From a virus: 27,111 bases of DNA. Numbering within the stretch: position 1 is the stretch's first letter; each line of letters opens with the position of its first letter. The position numbers were made by a program, and so were the translations under genes. The DNA lies in IMG/VR virus record IMGVR_UViG_3300046010_011944, positions 1 through 27,111 of that record, one strand, 5' to 3'. Below the pieces are notes generated by a model. That model did no database searches. It was not told where the DNA came from and saw only the letters and a program-made list of their open reading frames with translations. Of the stretch, positions 1-6,919 are shown piece by piece.

Positions 1-252
1 GTCCCTGCTGCAAAGCCAGCCGCCAAGACTACCACGGCCAAGCCACCTGCAAAGACTGGTGAAAAGAAAATGTCTGCCGCCCAGATGTTCCAAGACCTGA
101 TCATGGAGGGGAAGTTGACCGACGACAAGATCTTCGAGAAGGTGCAGGAGAAGTACGGCCTCGACGAGAAGAAGCGCGGCTACGTCAAGTGGTATCGCAA
201 CCACCTGAAGAAGCAGGGTGCGAATCCGCCCGAAGCTAAAGTCGGCAAGTAA
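1..252 (+). CDS. Hypothetical phage protein, 5' truncated by window edge
   Basis: The reading frame is open from base 1, so the gene probably starts outside the window; an internal ATG lies at 70. The visible N-terminal part is a low-complexity Ala/Pro/Lys/Thr linker of about 23 residues. It is followed by a compact charged domain of about 55 residues containing EGKLTDDKIFEKVQEKYGLD and RGYVKWYRNHLKKQG. Similar short helical C-terminal domains occur in uncharacterised phage proteins, and the basic helix suggests nucleic-acid binding, but this is only an impression. The stop is followed by a small hairpin (GGGCCA at 258-263, TGGCCC at 267-272) and a 48-nt gap before the methyltransferase gene. 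Function unknown; if translation really begins at 70 the protein has 60 residues. Confidence 0.7.
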   Translation, partial: VPAAKPAAKTTTAKPPAKTGEKKMSAAQMFQDLIMEGKLTDDKIFEKVQEKYGLDEKKRGYVKWYRNHLKKQGANPPEAKVGK

Positions 253-300: not shown

Positions 301-1107
301 ATGGCCCGCAAAGAAGTAGAACGTGACACCCGCGACTACGATACCACTCAGTTGCATGAGGCCGGCCACGGCCGCACGCTTCACAGAGATTACAGCAGTC
401 ATTTTTTCCGCTGGAGCTTTGCCCGCCGCTTCGTCTCGGCCAAGGACAACGTCCTTGAGGTCGGCTGCGGCGAGGACAAGCCGCTCAGCAAGATCTTGAC
501 TGGTGGCGCAGCTGCCCACGTCGGCCACTACACTGGCGTAGATCTGAACAAGCTCAAGCTGTCCAACAGCCAGCGTCTGGAGTTCCACGGCGAGTTCAAC
601 TTCGTCGAGCGCTATAAGGAGCTGCTGAAGAAGCGACCTGAGGGCTGGGACGTCGTCGTCAACTACGAAGTCATCGAGCACATGAAGGTCGAGCACGGCG
701 CCAGCTTGCTCAAGGCCATGTTCGCCTGCACCAAGCCGGGCGGGGTCCTGCTGCTCTCGACACCGGTCTACGATGGCGTGCGCCATGCCAAGAACCACAT
801 TCACGAGTACAAGGTACCGGAGCTTCAGGCCGCCATCGAGAAGGCGGGCTTCGTTGTCGAGCGTCGCTTCGGCACGTTCATGGACATCAAGCACATCGGC
901 AAGGTCGACCCCACCGGCTGCAGCAAGGCAGCTGTGCTGGAGGTTCGCAAGGCGCTGGAGCAGTACTTCGATAGCGACGCCATCAGCAACATCTTCGGCC
1001 CGCTGCACGAGAACCACTCCCGCAACAACCTGTGGGTCTGCCGCAAAGCAGCTGACGGCAAGCCGGTCAAGCCAGCGGCCCGCAAGACGAAAGGAGCGCC
1101 GTTCTGA
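301..1107 (+). CDS. Class I SAM-dependent methyltransferase
   Basis: This 268-residue protein has a Rossmann-fold methyltransferase core. The SAM-binding glycine loop VLEVGCGEDKPL lies near residues 51-62, the acidic end of strand 2 is in YTGVDLNKLKL, and the motif-IV region WDVVVNYEVIEHM is followed by the GGVLLLSTPVYD strand. A conserved-looking NHIHEY patch follows, typical of UbiG-like small-molecule methyltransferases. The last 20 residues are Lys/Pro/Ala rich and basic. The start has a good ribosome-binding site (AAAGGAG). The stop overlaps the start of the next gene by one base (TGATG), so it is probably co-translated with the nucleotide-metabolism genes. The target cannot be read from the sequence. 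I see none of the usual DPPY or PC DNA-methylase motifs, so a nucleotide, a modified base or a small molecule is more likely than ordinary N6-A or C5-C methylation. Confidence 0.85.
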   Translation: MARKEVERDTRDYDTTQLHEAGHGRTLHRDYSSHFFRWSFARRFVSAKDNVLEVGCGEDKPLSKILTGGAAAHVGHYTGVDLNKLKLSNSQRLEFHGEFNFVERYKELLKKRPEGWDVVVNYEVIEHMKVEHGASLLKAMFACTKPGGVLLLSTPVYDGVRHAKNHIHEYKVPELQAAIEKAGFVVERRFGTFMDIKHIGKVDPTGCSKAAVLEVRKALEQYFDSDAISNIFGPLHENHSRNNLWVCRKAADGKPVKPAARKTKGAPF

Positions 1108-1505
1108 TGATTGGAAACGTTCTGGAGTTTCATGAGAAGTTTGGTCTGCCGTTGGGCAAGGACGATCAGCTCACCCATAACCTGGACGCCACCGTCTTCC
1201 GTCTGAAGTTCCTGCAAGAGGAACTCGATGAGCTGGAAGAAGCTCTGGGCGACGGTGACCGCGTCAAGGCCTTCGATGCGCTGCTGGATCTGGCCTACGT
1301 GGCCTACGGCACAGCGCTTTTCCTGGGCGTCGATCCCGGCCAGTGGCATGCCGGCATGCACGCGGTCCACTCGTGCAACATGGCCAAGGTCCGTGTGGCC
1401 AAGGCTGAGGACTCGAAGCGCGGTAGCGCCTACGACGTCAAGAAGCCTGAAGGCTGGGTTGGTCCTGAGGTTCGCCTGGAGGAGATTCTGTCATGGACCA
1501 AGTAA
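1107..1505 (+). CDS. MazG/HisE-like nucleoside triphosphate pyrophosphohydrolase
   Basis: The 132-residue protein matches the all-alpha NTP pyrophosphohydrolase fold. It has the EExxE metal site FLQEELDELEEAL at residues 35-47 and the paired acidic helix FDALLDLAYVAYG at 56-68 (Asp57 and Asp61). Members hydrolyse (d)NTPs to (d)NMP and pyrophosphate; phage members include enzymes that remove dCTP or dUTP. The N-terminal VLEFHEKFGLP resembles phage HisE/MazG-like proteins. It overlaps the methyltransferase by 1 nt and the next kinase gene by 13 nt, with a strong GGAGGAG site for the kinase inside its end, so the genes are translationally coupled. Given its neighbours, a plausible role is removing an unmodified dNTP, as T4 gp56 does for dCTP, but the substrate is not visible in the sequence. 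Confidence 0.85.
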   Translation: MIGNVLEFHEKFGLPLGKDDQLTHNLDATVFRLKFLQEELDELEEALGDGDRVKAFDALLDLAYVAYGTALFLGVDPGQWHAGMHAVHSCNMAKVRVAKAEDSKRGSAYDVKKPEGWVGPEVRLEEILSWTK

Positions 1506-2407
1506 GCAAGAAGCTAACCATCTTCGAGGGCCCAGACGGCGGCGGCAAAAGCACAGCTGCCCAGGCCTACGCTGAAGCGACTGGCGCTAAGTACGTGCAC
1601 TTCTCTGCTTTGCCACGTGTCAACCATGGGTTGGGACGCGTCTACGTCGAGGCGATGCTGCCGGCCCTGTTGGGGTACCAGGACGTCGTCTTCGACCGCT
1701 GCTGGCTGAGCGAGGTGCCCTATGGCATCGCGTTCCGCGAGGGCAAGGACCGCCTTACCAACGCCAGCCGGCGGATGCTCGAGCGCTTGGCTATGCGGTG
1801 CGGGGCGGTTGTTGTGCGGTGCCAACCTTGCTGGGACGCCGTACGCCTCTGCTACATGTCACGCCGCCACCTGGAGATGCTCACGAACGAGGAGCAACTC
1901 AAGACGGTCTACGACCTCTACTCCGAACAGGTCACCGATCTGCCTGAGCTGGTTTACGACTACACCACGGATGGCGACCTGTTTGCCACGCAGAAACTCG
2001 GGTTCGAGATCGACCACCTGCGCATGCCGCAGCACCCGCTGTACCTCGCCTCGGCTGGCAACTGGGACGGGCGCGTCGTGCTGATCGGTGAGGCATTCGC
2101 TGAGCGCAAGGACCAGGATGCGTTCTACCAGTGGCCCTTCGCCTCGTTCAGCAACGAGGGTTGTAGCCAGTGGCTGACGAATCAGCTCGATTCGATCGAC
2201 ATGGGCGAGCAGGACCTGCTGTGGCTCAACGCGGACCAGGACCTGTCGGTGCTGCATGACCTGCAACATGAGCGGGTCATCGCGCTAGGCACCAAGGCCC
2301 ACGAGCAGCTGTACCGGCTGAAGATCGTGGCCGCCACCGTACCCCACCCTCAAGCGTTTAAGCGCTTCAATGCCAAGCAGCGTTACCCGCTGCTGGATCT
2401 GATCTAG
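1493..2407 (+). CDS. Fusion: P-loop dNMP-kinase-like domain plus UDG-like domain
   Basis: 304 residues in two parts. Residues 6-165 form a thymidylate-kinase-like P-loop domain: Walker A FEGPDGGGKST at 11-21 and a DR-type motif VFDRCWLSEVPYG at 66-78. Residues 180-304 resemble the uracil-DNA glycosylase superfamily: VVLIGEAFAERKDQ at 195-208 recalls the GEAPGxxED motif of family 4/5 UDGs, PFASFSNEG matches the region after it, and VIALGTKAHEQL at 262-273 followed by VPHPQAF (HPQ at 285-287) recalls the C-terminal strand and HPS loop. The Glu of motif A is kept; the usual HPS is HPQ. The fusion lies between a MazG-like and a ThyA-like gene, suggesting phosphorylation of a modified deoxynucleotide, or of a modified base in DNA with the second domain binding DNA. 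Kinase assignment is fairly secure; the UDG-like call rests on motif order only. Confidence 0.8.
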   Translation: MDQVSKKLTIFEGPDGGGKSTAAQAYAEATGAKYVHFSALPRVNHGLGRVYVEAMLPALLGYQDVVFDRCWLSEVPYGIAFREGKDRLTNASRRMLERLAMRCGAVVVRCQPCWDAVRLCYMSRRHLEMLTNEEQLKTVYDLYSEQVTDLPELVYDYTTDGDLFATQKLGFEIDHLRMPQHPLYLASAGNWDGRVVLIGEAFAERKDQDAFYQWPFASFSNEGCSQWLTNQLDSIDMGEQDLLWLNADQDLSVLHDLQHERVIALGTKAHEQLYRLKIVAATVPHPQAFKRFNAKQRYPLLDLI

Positions 2408-2416
2408 GAGGACCAA

Positions 2417-3199
2417 ATGGACTTTTCACGCACCTGGCTCAATGCCCTCAATGACATTCTCACCAATGGCGACCTCGTCAGCCCGCGCGGCAAACTCACT
2501 AAGGAAATTCCGCAGCGCACCATCGTGGTCAATATGCGCCAGCCGGTGCTTCGCGTACCCGACCGCAGCCTGAGCTACCGCTTCATGGTGGCCGAGGCAT
2601 TCTGGATCCTGTCGGGCGACGACCGTGTCGAGACGATCGCGCCGTACAACAGTCGCATCGCCGACTTCTCTGACGACGGCGAGCGCTTCTTCGGCGCCTA
2701 TGGCCCCAAAATCCAGGCCCAGTTGCCCTACGTGGTGGAGAAGCTGCTGGTTGACGTGGACAGCCGCCAAGCTGGCCTGACCATCTGGCGCGAGTGCCCA
2801 CCCCAGACCAAGGACGTACCCTGTACGGTGGCCGCATTCTTCGCCATTCGCGGCGGCAAGGTCAATGTCCACGTGTTCATGCGGTCAAGCGACGTCTGGT
2901 TGGGCGTGCCGTACGACGTCTTCAACTTCAGCATGCTGGGCCACCTCGTCTGCGGGCTGCTGAACGAGCACCGCCTGTCGGACAACCTGCTCAGTCCGGG
3001 CAAGTTGTTCCTGACGGCGGCGAGCAGCCACCTGTACGAGACCAACTGGGACGACGCTAAGTTGTGCTTGGCTGCTACGCCGCTGGATCAACCGGAGACG
3101 CCCAAATCGCTCTGGAACGACCCAAGGTTCCTGCTGGAAGAGCTCAGGATCCTGCGCGACACGCGACCGGGCGACCTGCATCGCTGGTGGGAGGTGTGA
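2417..3199 (+). CDS. ThyA-family enzyme, probable deoxypyrimidine hydroxymethylase
   Basis: 260 residues of the thymidylate synthase / dCMP hydroxymethylase family. Visible landmarks are the general-base Glu60 in the VAEAFWILSGD region, the catalytic Cys136 in DVPCT, the phosphate-binding MRSSD at 155-159, LGVPYD at 162-167 and the HLY pair (His205, Tyr207). Asp167 replaces the Asn that reads dUMP in thymidylate synthase (Asn177 in E. coli); T4 dCMP hydroxymethylase also has Asp there (Asp179). The IWDEW tryptophan region of E. coli ThyA appears here as IADFS, without Trp. These changes plus a separate ThyX favour hydroxymethylation of dCMP over dTMP synthesis. A TAGGAGG ribosome-binding site precedes the ATG. 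The next gene starts 2 nt after its stop. An ordinary ThyA remains possible, since phage families vary at these positions. Confidence 0.85.
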   Translation: MDFSRTWLNALNDILTNGDLVSPRGKLTKEIPQRTIVVNMRQPVLRVPDRSLSYRFMVAEAFWILSGDDRVETIAPYNSRIADFSDDGERFFGAYGPKIQAQLPYVVEKLLVDVDSRQAGLTIWRECPPQTKDVPCTVAAFFAIRGGKVNVHVFMRSSDVWLGVPYDVFNFSMLGHLVCGLLNEHRLSDNLLSPGKLFLTAASSHLYETNWDDAKLCLAATPLDQPETPKSLWNDPRFLLEELRILRDTRPGDLHRWWEV

Positions 3200-3200
3200 C

Positions 3201-3668
3201 ATGCGACCCAGCCGCGACGAATGGGCTCTGAAGTTAGCCCTACTGACTGCCCAACGGACAACCTGCTGCCGCCGAGCGGTGGGCTGCGTGCTGCTGAACG
3301 CACGAGGCCACGTGTTGGCCACGGGCTACAACGGCGTCGCGACTGGGCTACCGCACTGCAACGAGCACGACCCATACTTCGAGACGGGGTTCCCGCACGC
3401 CTGCTCCGGGGCCCAGGCGCCGAGCGGCACGAACCTCGATGGCTGCCAGGCGATCCACGCGGAGCAGAATGCCATGCTGCAGTGCCGGGACGTCTACAGC
3501 ATCCACACCTGCTACGTGACGGCCAGCCCCTGCATGACCTGCATCAAGCTGCTACTCAACACGAGCTGTGAACGAATCATCTTTGTGGAGGAGTATCCGC
3601 ACTCGGCGGCCAAGGAGCTCTGGACAGGCGCTGGGCGGGCTTGGGAGCAGCTTCTTGTGGAGATTTGA
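3201..3668 (+). CDS. Deoxycytidylate (dCMP) deaminase
   Basis: 155 residues with the zinc-dependent cytidine deaminase signature: HAEQNAM at 86-92 (zinc His86, proton-shuttle Glu88) and PCMTC at 110-114 (zinc Cys111 and Cys114). The N-terminal RRAVGCVLLNARGHVLATGYNG is typical of dCMP deaminases (ComEB / T4 cd type), as is the insertion before the HAE motif. The reaction is dCMP to dUMP plus ammonia, feeding thymidylate synthesis, presumably by ThyX. It is the last gene of the rightward row and is followed by the convergent terminator region. A GGGAGG site precedes the ATG. The enzyme is usually regulated by dCTP and dTTP; the sequence alone does not show whether this holds here. Confidence 0.93.
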   Translation: MRPSRDEWALKLALLTAQRTTCCRRAVGCVLLNARGHVLATGYNGVATGLPHCNEHDPYFETGFPHACSGAQAPSGTNLDGCQAIHAEQNAMLQCRDVYSIHTCYVTASPCMTCIKLLLNTSCERIIFVEEYPHSAAKELWTGAGRAWEQLLVEI

Positions 3669-3706: not shown

Positions 3707-3749
3707 AATGGCCTAGCCCATAGGAAGTATCAAGCTAGGCCATTCTTTT
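3707..3749 (+). terminator. Intrinsic terminator of the rightward nucleotide operon
   Basis: A perfect 11-bp stem, AATGGCCTAGC at 3707-3717 and GCTAGGCCATT at 3734-3744, is followed by CTTTT. It sits between the convergent dCMP deaminase and holin genes and should stop rightward transcription. On the other strand the stem is followed by TCGTTG, a weaker end for the leftward late transcript. Confidence 0.8.
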
Positions 3750-4954: not shown

Positions 4955-5228
4955 TGGGTACTCCAGAAAAAAGAACCGCCAAAGTAGTTACAACCACCAC
5001 CGGAACCAGCAAATCAAACTGCGCATCCAGTGACCATTCCCAAATCTTGAACGCCGGGAACGGGTTACTGCGATCCTTGCCGCTGATGATTTCCTCGCGC
5101 TGAGAATGCTCGCGGCCAATGAAGAACCCGATGGCAAGAGCAGCACCAACCCACCAGTAGCCGAACATCCCGAACGGCAACTGCATCAGCAGGGCGTAGC
5201 CGGCGTGCTCGAAGTTCGTGCTGTTCAT
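4947..5228 (-). CDS. Small two-helix membrane protein upstream of endolysin
   Basis: 93 residues with two predicted membrane segments: QLPFGMFGYWWVGAALAIGF (about residues 16-35) and DLLVPVVVVTTLAVLFSGVP (about 72-91). Between them is a charged loop (REHSQREEIISGKDRSNPF). The start codon overlaps the tail-fibre stop in an ATGA junction, so it is translated from the late transcript. Between the fibre and the endolysin it could be a second holin-like or accessory lysis protein; no diagnostic motif is visible. Confidence 0.75.
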   Translation of the reverse strand: MNSTNFEHAGYALLMQLPFGMFGYWWVGAALAIGFFIGREHSQREEIISGKDRSNPFPAFKIWEWSLDAQFDLLVPVVVVTTLAVLFSGVPNG

Positions 5229-6919
5229 TTTGACGCCTTAAGCATATCTACCTCTGCTTTCAGCTCCTGCACCGCTTTAACAAGCACGGCCAGCAGATTC
5301 TGATCTACCAACTTGAGCTTATTCTCGTCTTCTGCGTCAACGATTACCGGGGAATCCCCCTCAAGAGCAAGAATGTCTTGTGCTAAGAATCCGTATCTTG
5401 TATTTCCATTTGCCTCATCTGAATCACGGTTGAGTTTATATTTGTAGCTCACTGGCTTGAGCTGACTCACAAAATTTAATCCATGGGGGACTTCGCCAAT
5501 CTCGGTCTTATCCCTTGCGTCTGATACAACCGTCCAGGCAACCTGCACATAGGCATTGGTAATCGCCGTGTGGCCCATGACAAGACGATTATTTTCCGTT
5601 GTTGGATCAAACACTGGAACATACGCATCCGCAGAACTGTGGAATCCAATACCAATATTGCCTTTACCAGTCGTATTGTTTTTAAGTGCGGCGATTCCAA
5701 GCGCCACATTATCTATGCCTGTCGTGTTGCCGAATAAGGCACGATAACCAACTGCGGTATTTTGGTATCCCGAGGTATTGTTGTAAAGCGACTGAAATCC
5801 TAATGCTGCATTGTTTATTCCTGACAAGTTATAGTACATCGACTGAGCGCCGACGCTTGCGTTCTGGTATCCGGTTTCATTGGTATAAAGCGATTGGTAT
5901 CCTGCCGCTGTATTGTTGTAACCGGAAATGTTGTTGTAAGCTGACAGCGCGCCAAGCACGGCGTTCCGGTATCCTGTCGTGTTATCATAAAGGGCAGTCC
6001 TCCCGCATGCGGCATTTTCATACCCAGTGGTATTGCTATAAATTGCACCGAGTCCTATTGCGGTATTTTCGCTACCAGTCAAACTGCTGTAAAGCGCATC
6101 GTTTCCAATAGCTACATTATTCCCACCAGTTGTATTAGAAAAAAGCGCAGCATATCCGACCGACACGTTGGCATTTCCTGAGGTGTTTGAGTACCCTGCT
6201 TGAAACCCAAGAGCGGCGTTATACTGCCCTGTTAAATTTCCCCAAAGAGCTTTGTATCCAACGGCTAAATTGTCTTCCCCTGTGGTATTGGAGAACATGG
6301 ATTGATAACCGAACGCTTGGTTATTAAACCCGGAAATATTTTGGTATAGCGCACGATACCCAATTGCGCACAAATTTTCACCAATCGTGTTGGCTTTAGC
6401 GGACTCATATCCGACCGCAGTATTGTTAGTCGCTGTTGTGTTTGAATAAAGCGAGTCTCGGCCAACTGCGGTATTGTTATATCCAGATATGTCATTTGAC
6501 ACAAGCGCATTCTTGCCTAGAGCTGTGTTCTCAACTCTATTACCAGTACCCCGCCCAATAGTTACCCCATTTACAACAATGTCGTTATCGCCACCAGATG
6601 TGAAGCTGAAAGGAATTCTCTGCGTGCATGTTAGCGACGAATACACAAGGCGTCCGTGTTTATCCTTTAATAAAATGGAGTAATCATCTACGGCGGCAAA
6701 AATACGAACAGGCGAACCGCTTACGACAGGGTATCCTCCACTTGTACGAACAGGCTGTGCTATCGGCACAGCAAGCCCAACATCGGAATAAACGGTTATA
6801 GGATTAGTTTCTGGATTTAGGCCGGCGGTGCCAACATAAATATATCCATCATCCACCTGATTCCCGTCAATATCAGTAAAAATCGGGAAGGGTACACTAA
6901 GTGAAACAATCGAACTCAT
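5225..6919 (-). CDS. Tail fibre/spike: P22-like head-binding domain, 17-residue repeats, S74 chaperone
   Basis: 564 residues with three parts. Residues 8-95 (PFPIFTDIDGNQVDDGYIYV, ITVYSDVGLAVPIAQPVRTS) resemble the P22 tailspike head-binding domain, which attaches the spike to the tail hub. Residues about 130-425 contain about 17 copies of a 17-residue repeat of the type NTAVGYxALYxNTTGYx, as in YadA-head-like or shaft beta structures. Residues about 460-564 form an intramolecular chaperone of the peptidase S74 family, with the VVSDARDK site (Ser466, Lys471) where self-cleavage would release the chaperone after trimerisation, and a C-terminal coiled coil (VKAVQELKAEVDMLKASK). No endoglycosidase beta-helix is seen. 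The DNA is visibly richer in A+T than its neighbours, suggesting the receptor-binding part was exchanged. Confidence 0.92.
   Translation of the reverse strand: MSSIVSLSVPFPIFTDIDGNQVDDGYIYVGTAGLNPETNPITVYSDVGLAVPIAQPVRTSGGYPVVSGSPVRIFAAVDDYSILLKDKHGRLVYSSLTCTQRIPFSFTSGGDNDIVVNGVTIGRGTGNRVENTALGKNALVSNDISGYNNTAVGRDSLYSNTTATNNTAVGYESAKANTIGENLCAIGYRALYQNISGFNNQAFGYQSMFSNTTGEDNLAVGYKALWGNLTGQYNAALGFQAGYSNTSGNANVSVGYAALFSNTTGGNNVAIGNDALYSSLTGSENTAIGLGAIYSNTTGYENAACGRTALYDNTTGYRNAVLGALSAYNNISGYNNTAAGYQSLYTNETGYQNASVGAQSMYYNLSGINNAALGFQSLYNNTSGYQNTAVGYRALFGNTTGIDNVALGIAALKNNTTGKGNIGIGFHSSADAYVPVFDPTTENNRLVMGHTAITNAYVQVAWTVVSDARDKTEIGEVPHGLNFVSQLKPVSYKYKLNRDSDEANGNTRYGFLAQDILALEGDSPVIVDAEDENKLKLVDQNLLAVLVKAVQELKAEVDMLKASK
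5645..6532 (-). repeat. About 17 degenerate 51-bp coding repeats in tail fibre
   Basis: The segment encodes consecutive 17-residue units such as NTAVGRDSLYSNTTATN, NNVAIGNDALYSSLTGS and NTAVGYRALFGNTTGID. The protein pattern is regular but the DNA copies are diverged, so this is an old repeat maintained by selection on structure. It would form the fibre shaft. Confidence 0.9.

Follow-up and report, generated by a model that had tools for sequence, protein, structure and literature searches.

The 27,111-base virus record IMGVR_UViG_3300046010_011944 (positions 1-27,111; hereafter the window) carries a row of genes for a MazG-like hydrolase, a thymidylate-kinase-like fusion protein, a ThyA-like enzyme and a deoxycytidine monophosphate (dCMP) deaminase. 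The question that this locus raises is whether the row supplies ordinary thymidylate or a modified base; an earlier reading made from the letters alone (the sequence-only reading) had likened it to the pathway by which phage T4 makes hydroxymethyl-deoxycytidine triphosphate (dCTP). Our analysis gives good support to a cytosine-derived modification at C5 of the phage DNA (probability about 0.9). As judged from its residues, the direct product of the ThyA-like enzyme is very probably the 5-hydroxymethyl compound, 5-hydroxymethyl-dCMP.

The ThyA-like protein was aligned with T4 gp42, MilA, thymidylate synthases (TSs) and 5-hydroxymethyluracil (hmU)-type phage enzymes, and the invariance of its residues was assessed over 81 sequences. 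The catalytic Cys136 and Glu60, which activates methylene-tetrahydrofolate (methylene-THF), are present in 81/81 sequences. The Asp noted at the base-reading position by the sequence-only reading, Asp167, is likewise invariant (81/81) and aligns with the cytosine readers T4 Asp179 and MilA Asp186, at the position of Asn177 in Escherichia coli TS (EcTS). Asn occupies this position in TS and in the uracil enzymes of phages AN14, ISTP3 and Goe26, which we take to be hmU-type because they belong to the M6, ViI and SPO1 groups. Thr137, located directly after Cys136, is also found in T4 and MilA and is invariant in the 81 sequences, while the hmU-type enzymes have Asn and TS has His. Three residues ahead of Cys136, Asp133 corresponds to T4 Asp145 and is present in 81/81 sequences; an Asp at this position activates the substrate water and is a signature of hydroxymethylases, whereas TS has Leu (PMC6400193). 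Thr137 and Asp167 correspond to EcTS positions 147 and 177, which showed the strongest association with cytosine modification in the MetaGPA study (PMC8670742).

The closest PDB sequence is MilA, the CMP hydroxymethylase of mildiomycin biosynthesis, which shares the Asp before and after the Cys, the Cys-Thr pair and the cytosine-reading Asp. The two enzymes differ in the sugar-binding positions: MilA prefers CMP and has Ala and Lys at the ribose positions (PMC5175136), whereas Ser157 and Arg117 of the window enzyme, found in 81/81 sequences, are of the deoxyribose type. Based on these residues, the protein is called here a predicted cytidylate hydroxymethylase that would work like gp42, and it is not filed as a gp42 orthologue.

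Evidence from relatives of the window bears on the same question. Of 13 virus contigs searched for ThyX (PF02511), 10 encode it, the three without it being fragments of 15 to 32 kb; among the contigs of at least 31 kb the count is 10 of 11. It is also encoded by Stenotrophomonas phage AXL3 (Axeltriavirus) and Pseudoxanthomonas phage PW916. The ThyA-like protein is therefore not needed for the synthesis of deoxythymidine monophosphate (dTMP). ThyX was not found in the 27-kb window itself, where absences carry little weight because the window is a fragment beside relatives of 38-41 kb. The genomic DNA of AXL3 was refractory to 35 of 35 tested restriction enzymes whose sites contain G/C, and both enzymes with A/T-only sites, TasI and Tru1I, cut it; the authors suspected altered nucleotides, yet read gp27-gp29 as a route to deoxythymidine diphosphate (dTDP) (PMC7504290). 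Additionally, families PF00303, PF01503, PF00383 and PF14437 co-occur on the modified-cytosine contigs of MetaGPA (PMC8670742), and window proteins match all four. Those contigs also resemble the present system in their Asp177-type ThyA, and the ligase families PF14743/PF01068 on the MetaGPA list occur in a relative of the window (contig G004); they differ in encoding a 5-hydroxymethylcytosine carbamoyltransferase. The proposal made from the window alone, a modified cytosine that arises by way of a dCMP hydroxymethylase, is supported by Asp133 and Thr137, by the invariance over 81 sequences, by ThyX in the relatives and by the resistance of AXL3 DNA to restriction.

The alternative that survives best, although improbable, is a dCMP methylase: the ThyA-like enzyme would read dCMP and end its reaction by hydride transfer, giving 5-methyl-dCMP and 5-methylcytosine DNA such as that of Xanthomonas phage XP12. 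TS mutants N177D/N229D behave as dCMP methylases, according to work cited in PMC8670742, an XP12 enzyme of that kind is known from work cited in PMC5175136, and the restriction resistance of AXL3 does not tell 5-methylcytosine from hydroxymethylcytosine. Against methylation, Asp133, whose counterpart activates water in T4 dCMP hydroxymethylase and is Leu in TS, is invariant in the 81 sequences, and the Pfam TS match ends at position 231 of 266, so that the C-terminal tail with which TS shields hydride transfer is not recognisable.

Less probable still is an ordinary thymidylate cassette, in which the deaminase would yield deoxyuridine monophosphate (dUMP), the ThyA-like enzyme dTMP and the kinase dTDP. 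The annotation and the dTDP pathway of the AXL3 authors (PMC7504290) agree with it, as does a kinase fold nearest to thymidylate kinases. However, Asp167, Thr137 and Asp133 are not TS residues, dTMP is already covered by ThyX in the relatives, and the DNA of AXL3 is modified; we rejected this explanation on the residues and ThyX. The weakest candidate, a 5-hydroxymethyl-dUMP pathway of the SPO1, ViI or M6 type fed by dUMP from the deaminase, would fit the combination of hydroxymethylase, kinase and dCMP deaminase found in such phages and the name deoxyuridylate hydroxymethyltransferase given by the PW916 authors, but it is the most doubtful of all and was rejected on Asp167 and Thr137, where uracil enzymes carry Asn at the specificity position and a Cys-Asn pair, and on the AXL3 digests, with cleavage at A/T-only sites and resistance at G/C sites.

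Several observations weigh against cytosine hydroxymethylation. T4 Ser94, two residues before the catalytic Tyr, corresponds to Gly93 in 81/81 sequences, and a Ser or Thr at this place has been proposed as part of the T4 gp42-type signature (PMC6400193). We do not treat Ser94 as defining hydroxymethylases, because the hmU-type controls AN14 and ISTP3 also carry Gly. The restriction panel comes from AXL3, whose ThyA-like enzyme is only 55% identical to that of the window, and the resistance could reflect a modified G, although no G-modifying genes are annotated in AXL3. Finally, many relatives lack the kinase, so the pathway cannot depend on it in every phage.

This kinase is a fusion protein. 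Its model (predicted local distance difference test score, pLDDT, 95) best matches the structure of YorR (3kb2; Z 14.8, root-mean-square deviation 2.5 over 158), followed by thymidylate kinases, and its putative role is that of a hydroxymethyl-dCMP kinase. The family of hydroxymethyl-deoxyuridine DNA kinases (PF18748) matched neither the window kinase at 0.1 nor the AXL3 kinase at 1, while an M6-like control from AN14 matched at 7.7e-18; that identity was rejected on this result, which also counts against the 5-hydroxymethyl-dUMP pathway. The C-terminal ~120 residues form a separate conserved domain with motifs of the uracil-DNA glycosylase (UDG) superfamily, which was examined by sequence profile only. 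Among the leading PDB matches of the domain profile almost all were UDGs, at weak E values of 0.019-0.4, and PF03167 matched 11 of 36 domain members (best 6.7e-5), the window member not being among them. The link to UDGs rests on these two results, because a PF03167 search of the whole relatives gave nothing above threshold. The lack of UDGs among the matches of the whole-kinase fold search means nothing, because the kinase domain fills that search.

In 19 loci, a DUF1599-like protein of 113-133 amino acids (aa) occupies the kinase slot (e.g., L007:2869-3270, L012:5603-5998 and 17 others). The two are mutually exclusive (kinase fusion in 53 loci, DUF1599-like protein in 19, never both), and no kinase homologue was found elsewhere in the genomes of the swapped relatives searched. 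DUF1599 (Nmad1) was matched weakly by 11 of 12 members of the replacement protein, at best with 1.7e-3. On a quick tree of the ThyA-like proteins, which has several long branches, explaining the kinase/DUF1599 label takes 10 or more changes, of which at least 3 are forced by well supported branches; the two genes have therefore been exchanged repeatedly. Within phrog_18404, the DUF1599-like proteins and the MazG protein match separate regions, which suggests a fusion of the two in some phages. The simplest idea for the swapped phages is that a host kinase phosphorylates the modified dCMP. Thus, the parallel with the T4 kinase step drawn by the sequence-only reading holds for the presence of a thymidylate-kinase-like enzyme and fails as a general rule, since the DUF1599-like protein replaces it in many relatives. 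The putative, divergent UDG-superfamily domain on the kinase and the recurrent exchange of the kinase gene are new elements of this analysis.

The block also includes a methyltransferase of the UbiG/Methyltransf_23 kind. Its AlphaFold model (pLDDT 91.5) has the class I methyltransferase fold, with CmoM leading the structural matches (Z 19.6 and 19.0) and many others at similar Z. Because CmoM, which acts on the tRNA wobble uridine, leads by a small margin, the structural search does not discriminate among methyltransferase substrates. Read directly, the sequence showed none of the usual motifs of N4/N6 or C5 DNA methyltransferases ([DNS]PP[FYW], PC). In 12 relatives including AXL3, neither GT1/GT2 glycosyltransferases (PF00534, PF00535) nor a carbamoyltransferase was matched, while the positive controls were; the glucosyltransferase profiles PF09198 and PF11440 also gave no match, although the control for these profiles was equally silent. 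By the GT1/GT2 result, a T4-like glucosylated hydroxymethylcytosine is not indicated, and the suggestion that a glycosyltransferase might lie elsewhere in the genome found no support from the GT1/GT2 families in these near-complete relatives. With GT1, GT2 and carbamoyltransferases missing from the 12 relatives, any tailoring of hydroxymethylcytosine would best be ascribed to the methyltransferase, which we can only infer. More tentatively, the methyltransferase may act on hydroxymethylcytosine, at the hydroxymethyl group or another position and on DNA or nucleotide, to give a new hypermodified cytosine such as 5-methoxymethyl-deoxycytidine, with the kinase-glycosylase fusion and the DUF1599-like protein as exchangeable solutions to one step; as a whole, this combination is doubtful.

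The coordinates and family matches of the four genes (Table 1) agree with the places and families given by the sequence-only reading. The kinase gene overlaps the MazG-like gene by 13 bases, the ATG of the ThyA-like gene, preceded by AGGAGG, lies 9 bases after the kinase gene, and a single base separates it from the deaminase gene, which bears out the tight coupling claimed for them. The methyltransferase stop also overlaps the MazG-like start (TGATG), and the four genes are translationally coupled. The cassette of four genes was therefore described correctly but too narrowly, as it left out the methyltransferase and the adjoining small protein of the same block. A strong hairpin downstream of the deaminase gene likely ends the block, separating it from the convergent lysis and structural genes; it was not listed by a terminator scan (allowed loop 3-8 bases) but did appear in the RNA fold. 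The structural genes form a P22-like set (portal, adaptor, closure and ejection), in line with the podovirus assignment made before.

Table 1. Features of the proposed modified-cytosine gene block and its downstream border in the window.
Feature	Position	Strand	Characteristics
Small protein	70-252	+	60 aa; phrog_17205, 2.2e-4; adjoins methyltransferase, conserved
Class I S-adenosylmethionine-dependent methyltransferase	301-1107	+	Methyltransf_23, Pfam 1.5e-13
MazG-like/PRA-PH hydrolase	1107-1505	+	132 aa; Pfam PRA-PH 1.4e-10; phrog_671 9.5e-23
Kinase fusion	1493-2407	+	304 aa; thymidylate kinase phrog_761 (2.1e-13, residues 3-167); additional C-terminal domain
Thymidylate-kinase-like P-loop nucleotide kinase domain	1493-2038	+	motif GPDGGGKST
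Kinase C-terminal domain, putative divergent member of the uracil-DNA-glycosylase superfamily	2042-2407	+	VLIGE...PF.S..GCS.WL...LWLNA...IALG..A...HPQ..KRF
ThyA-superfamily cytidylate hydroxymethylase (predicted)	2417-3199	+	260 aa; Thymidylat_synt 4.8e-20
dCMP deaminase	3201-3668	+	155 aa; dCMP_cyt_deam_1 1.3e-18; phrog_174 2.6e-35; zinc motifs HAE and PCMTC
Likely terminator	3707-3745		11-bp inverted repeat, then T-rich tail (CTTTT); RNA fold -17.7 kcal/mol, z -3.05

To follow the block among relatives, IMG/VR loci were collected with a profile of the ThyA-like protein. Since gene counts depend on the flank length available, upstream genes were counted in the 65 loci whose upstream flank reaches 4 kb or more and the deaminase in the 72 whose downstream flank reaches 1.5 kb or more. 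The methyltransferase and the MazG-like gene were each found in 58/65 loci, the kinase in 46/65, the DUF1599-like protein in 17/65, a homologue of the small protein in 42/65 and the deaminase in 69/72. The order methyltransferase, MazG, hydroxymethylase and deaminase on one strand was kept in 58 of the 59 loci holding all four genes; thus, the arrangement is not due to chance. AXL3 (locus L021), PW916 and Siphoviridae sp. ctUtU524 have the identical order of small protein, methyltransferase, MazG, kinase fusion, ThyA-like enzyme and deaminase. Identity between AXL3 and window enzymes is highest for the methyltransferase (70%), followed by the deaminase (64%), the ThyA-like enzyme (55%), the kinase (46%) and MazG (38%). 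The small protein corresponds to the C-terminal portion of a protein of ~200 aa in relatives, and in many relatives (loci L061-L107) its homologues appear as two paralogues of ~130-160 and ~200 aa between the helicase and the methyltransferase.

Like the window, AXL3 (block genes gp27-gp31) and PW916 combine this gene order with the same early module, which AXL3 and the window's relatives share beyond the block (helicase, exonuclease, polymerase A, ligase and primase). AXL3 differs from it in its siphovirus structural module and in its authors' annotation of a thymidylate pathway instead of hydroxymethylation. Early module and block are combined with podovirus structural genes in the window and G004 (locus L142), with siphovirus genes in AXL3 and with myovirus genes in contig G003 (loci L007, L144 and L145; baseplate wedge, tape measure). 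Two genomes from the Manatee Spring metagenome, Podoviridae sp. ct3Et533 and ctUtU524, carry the order methyltransferase, nucleoside triphosphate pyrophosphatase (NTP-PPase), kinase, 'pyrimidine hmase' and deaminase, although the 187-aa kinase of ct3Et533 lacks the glycosylase-like domain of the window kinase. A scan of genome contigs returned two metagenome-assembled bins, neither of them informative about the host.

From these observations, a putative pathway can be outlined, whose outcome would be phage DNA that carries a C5-modified cytosine in place of cytosine. The MazG-like enzyme, a presumed dCTPase by family and position, would hydrolyse dCTP to dCMP and thereby exclude normal dCTP from the pool. 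The ThyA-like enzyme would transfer the methylene group of methylene-THF onto C5 of dCMP, where attack by water would give 5-hydroxymethyl-dCMP. The thymidylate-kinase-like enzyme may then phosphorylate the modified dCMP towards the triphosphate, with its glycosylase-like domain probably recognising the base, a role that is a guess. Spare dCMP would be converted to dUMP by the deaminase, and dUMP to dTMP by the ThyX encoded elsewhere in the relatives. For any further step, on the base or on the nucleotide, the methyltransferase is the leading candidate.

This outline is known in kind. T4 (gp56, gp1, gp42, cd and td) likewise combines a pyrophosphohydrolase, a nucleotide kinase, a ThyA-fold dCMP hydroxymethylase, a dCMP deaminase and a separate synthesis of dTMP. 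However, the T4 genes are scattered, whereas those of the window form one operon, to which a conserved methyltransferase absent from T4 is linked. A hydrolase of the MazG/PRA-PH type stands in place of gp56, the kinase differs from that of T4 in being thymidylate-kinase-like with a UDG-like domain, its slot is interchangeable with a partner gene (DUF1599-like), and the relatives have ThyX, in contrast to the ThyA of T4, and no GT1/GT2 glycosyltransferase that we could find. What makes the pathway a variant is its methyltransferase, together with the kinase-glycosylase fusion and the exchange of that fusion for the DUF1599-like protein.

Two observations were made outside the block. The tail-spike-like protein encoded at 5225-6919 of the window (minus strand) contains many diverged repeats of ~24 aa of the NNTAVGYQSLYSNTTG type, while a tandem repeat finder detected no repeats in this gene at the DNA level. 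In G004, a protein encoded near ThyX (L142:3504-4094, minus strand) joins Phage_gp49_66 and RyR domains.

For AXL3, whose genes had been taken for an ordinary route to thymidylate, these results turn an unexplained restriction resistance into a concrete prediction at the level of genes. Because the block occurs together with structural genes of podoviruses, siphoviruses and myoviruses, it represents a widespread and mobile way of hiding DNA from restriction. The recurrent swap between the kinase fusion and the DUF1599-like protein offers a testable handle on the poorly understood DUF1599 domain, and the conservation of the methyltransferase, where carbamoyl- and glycosyltransferases of known kinds are missing, points to a DNA base that may not have been described before.

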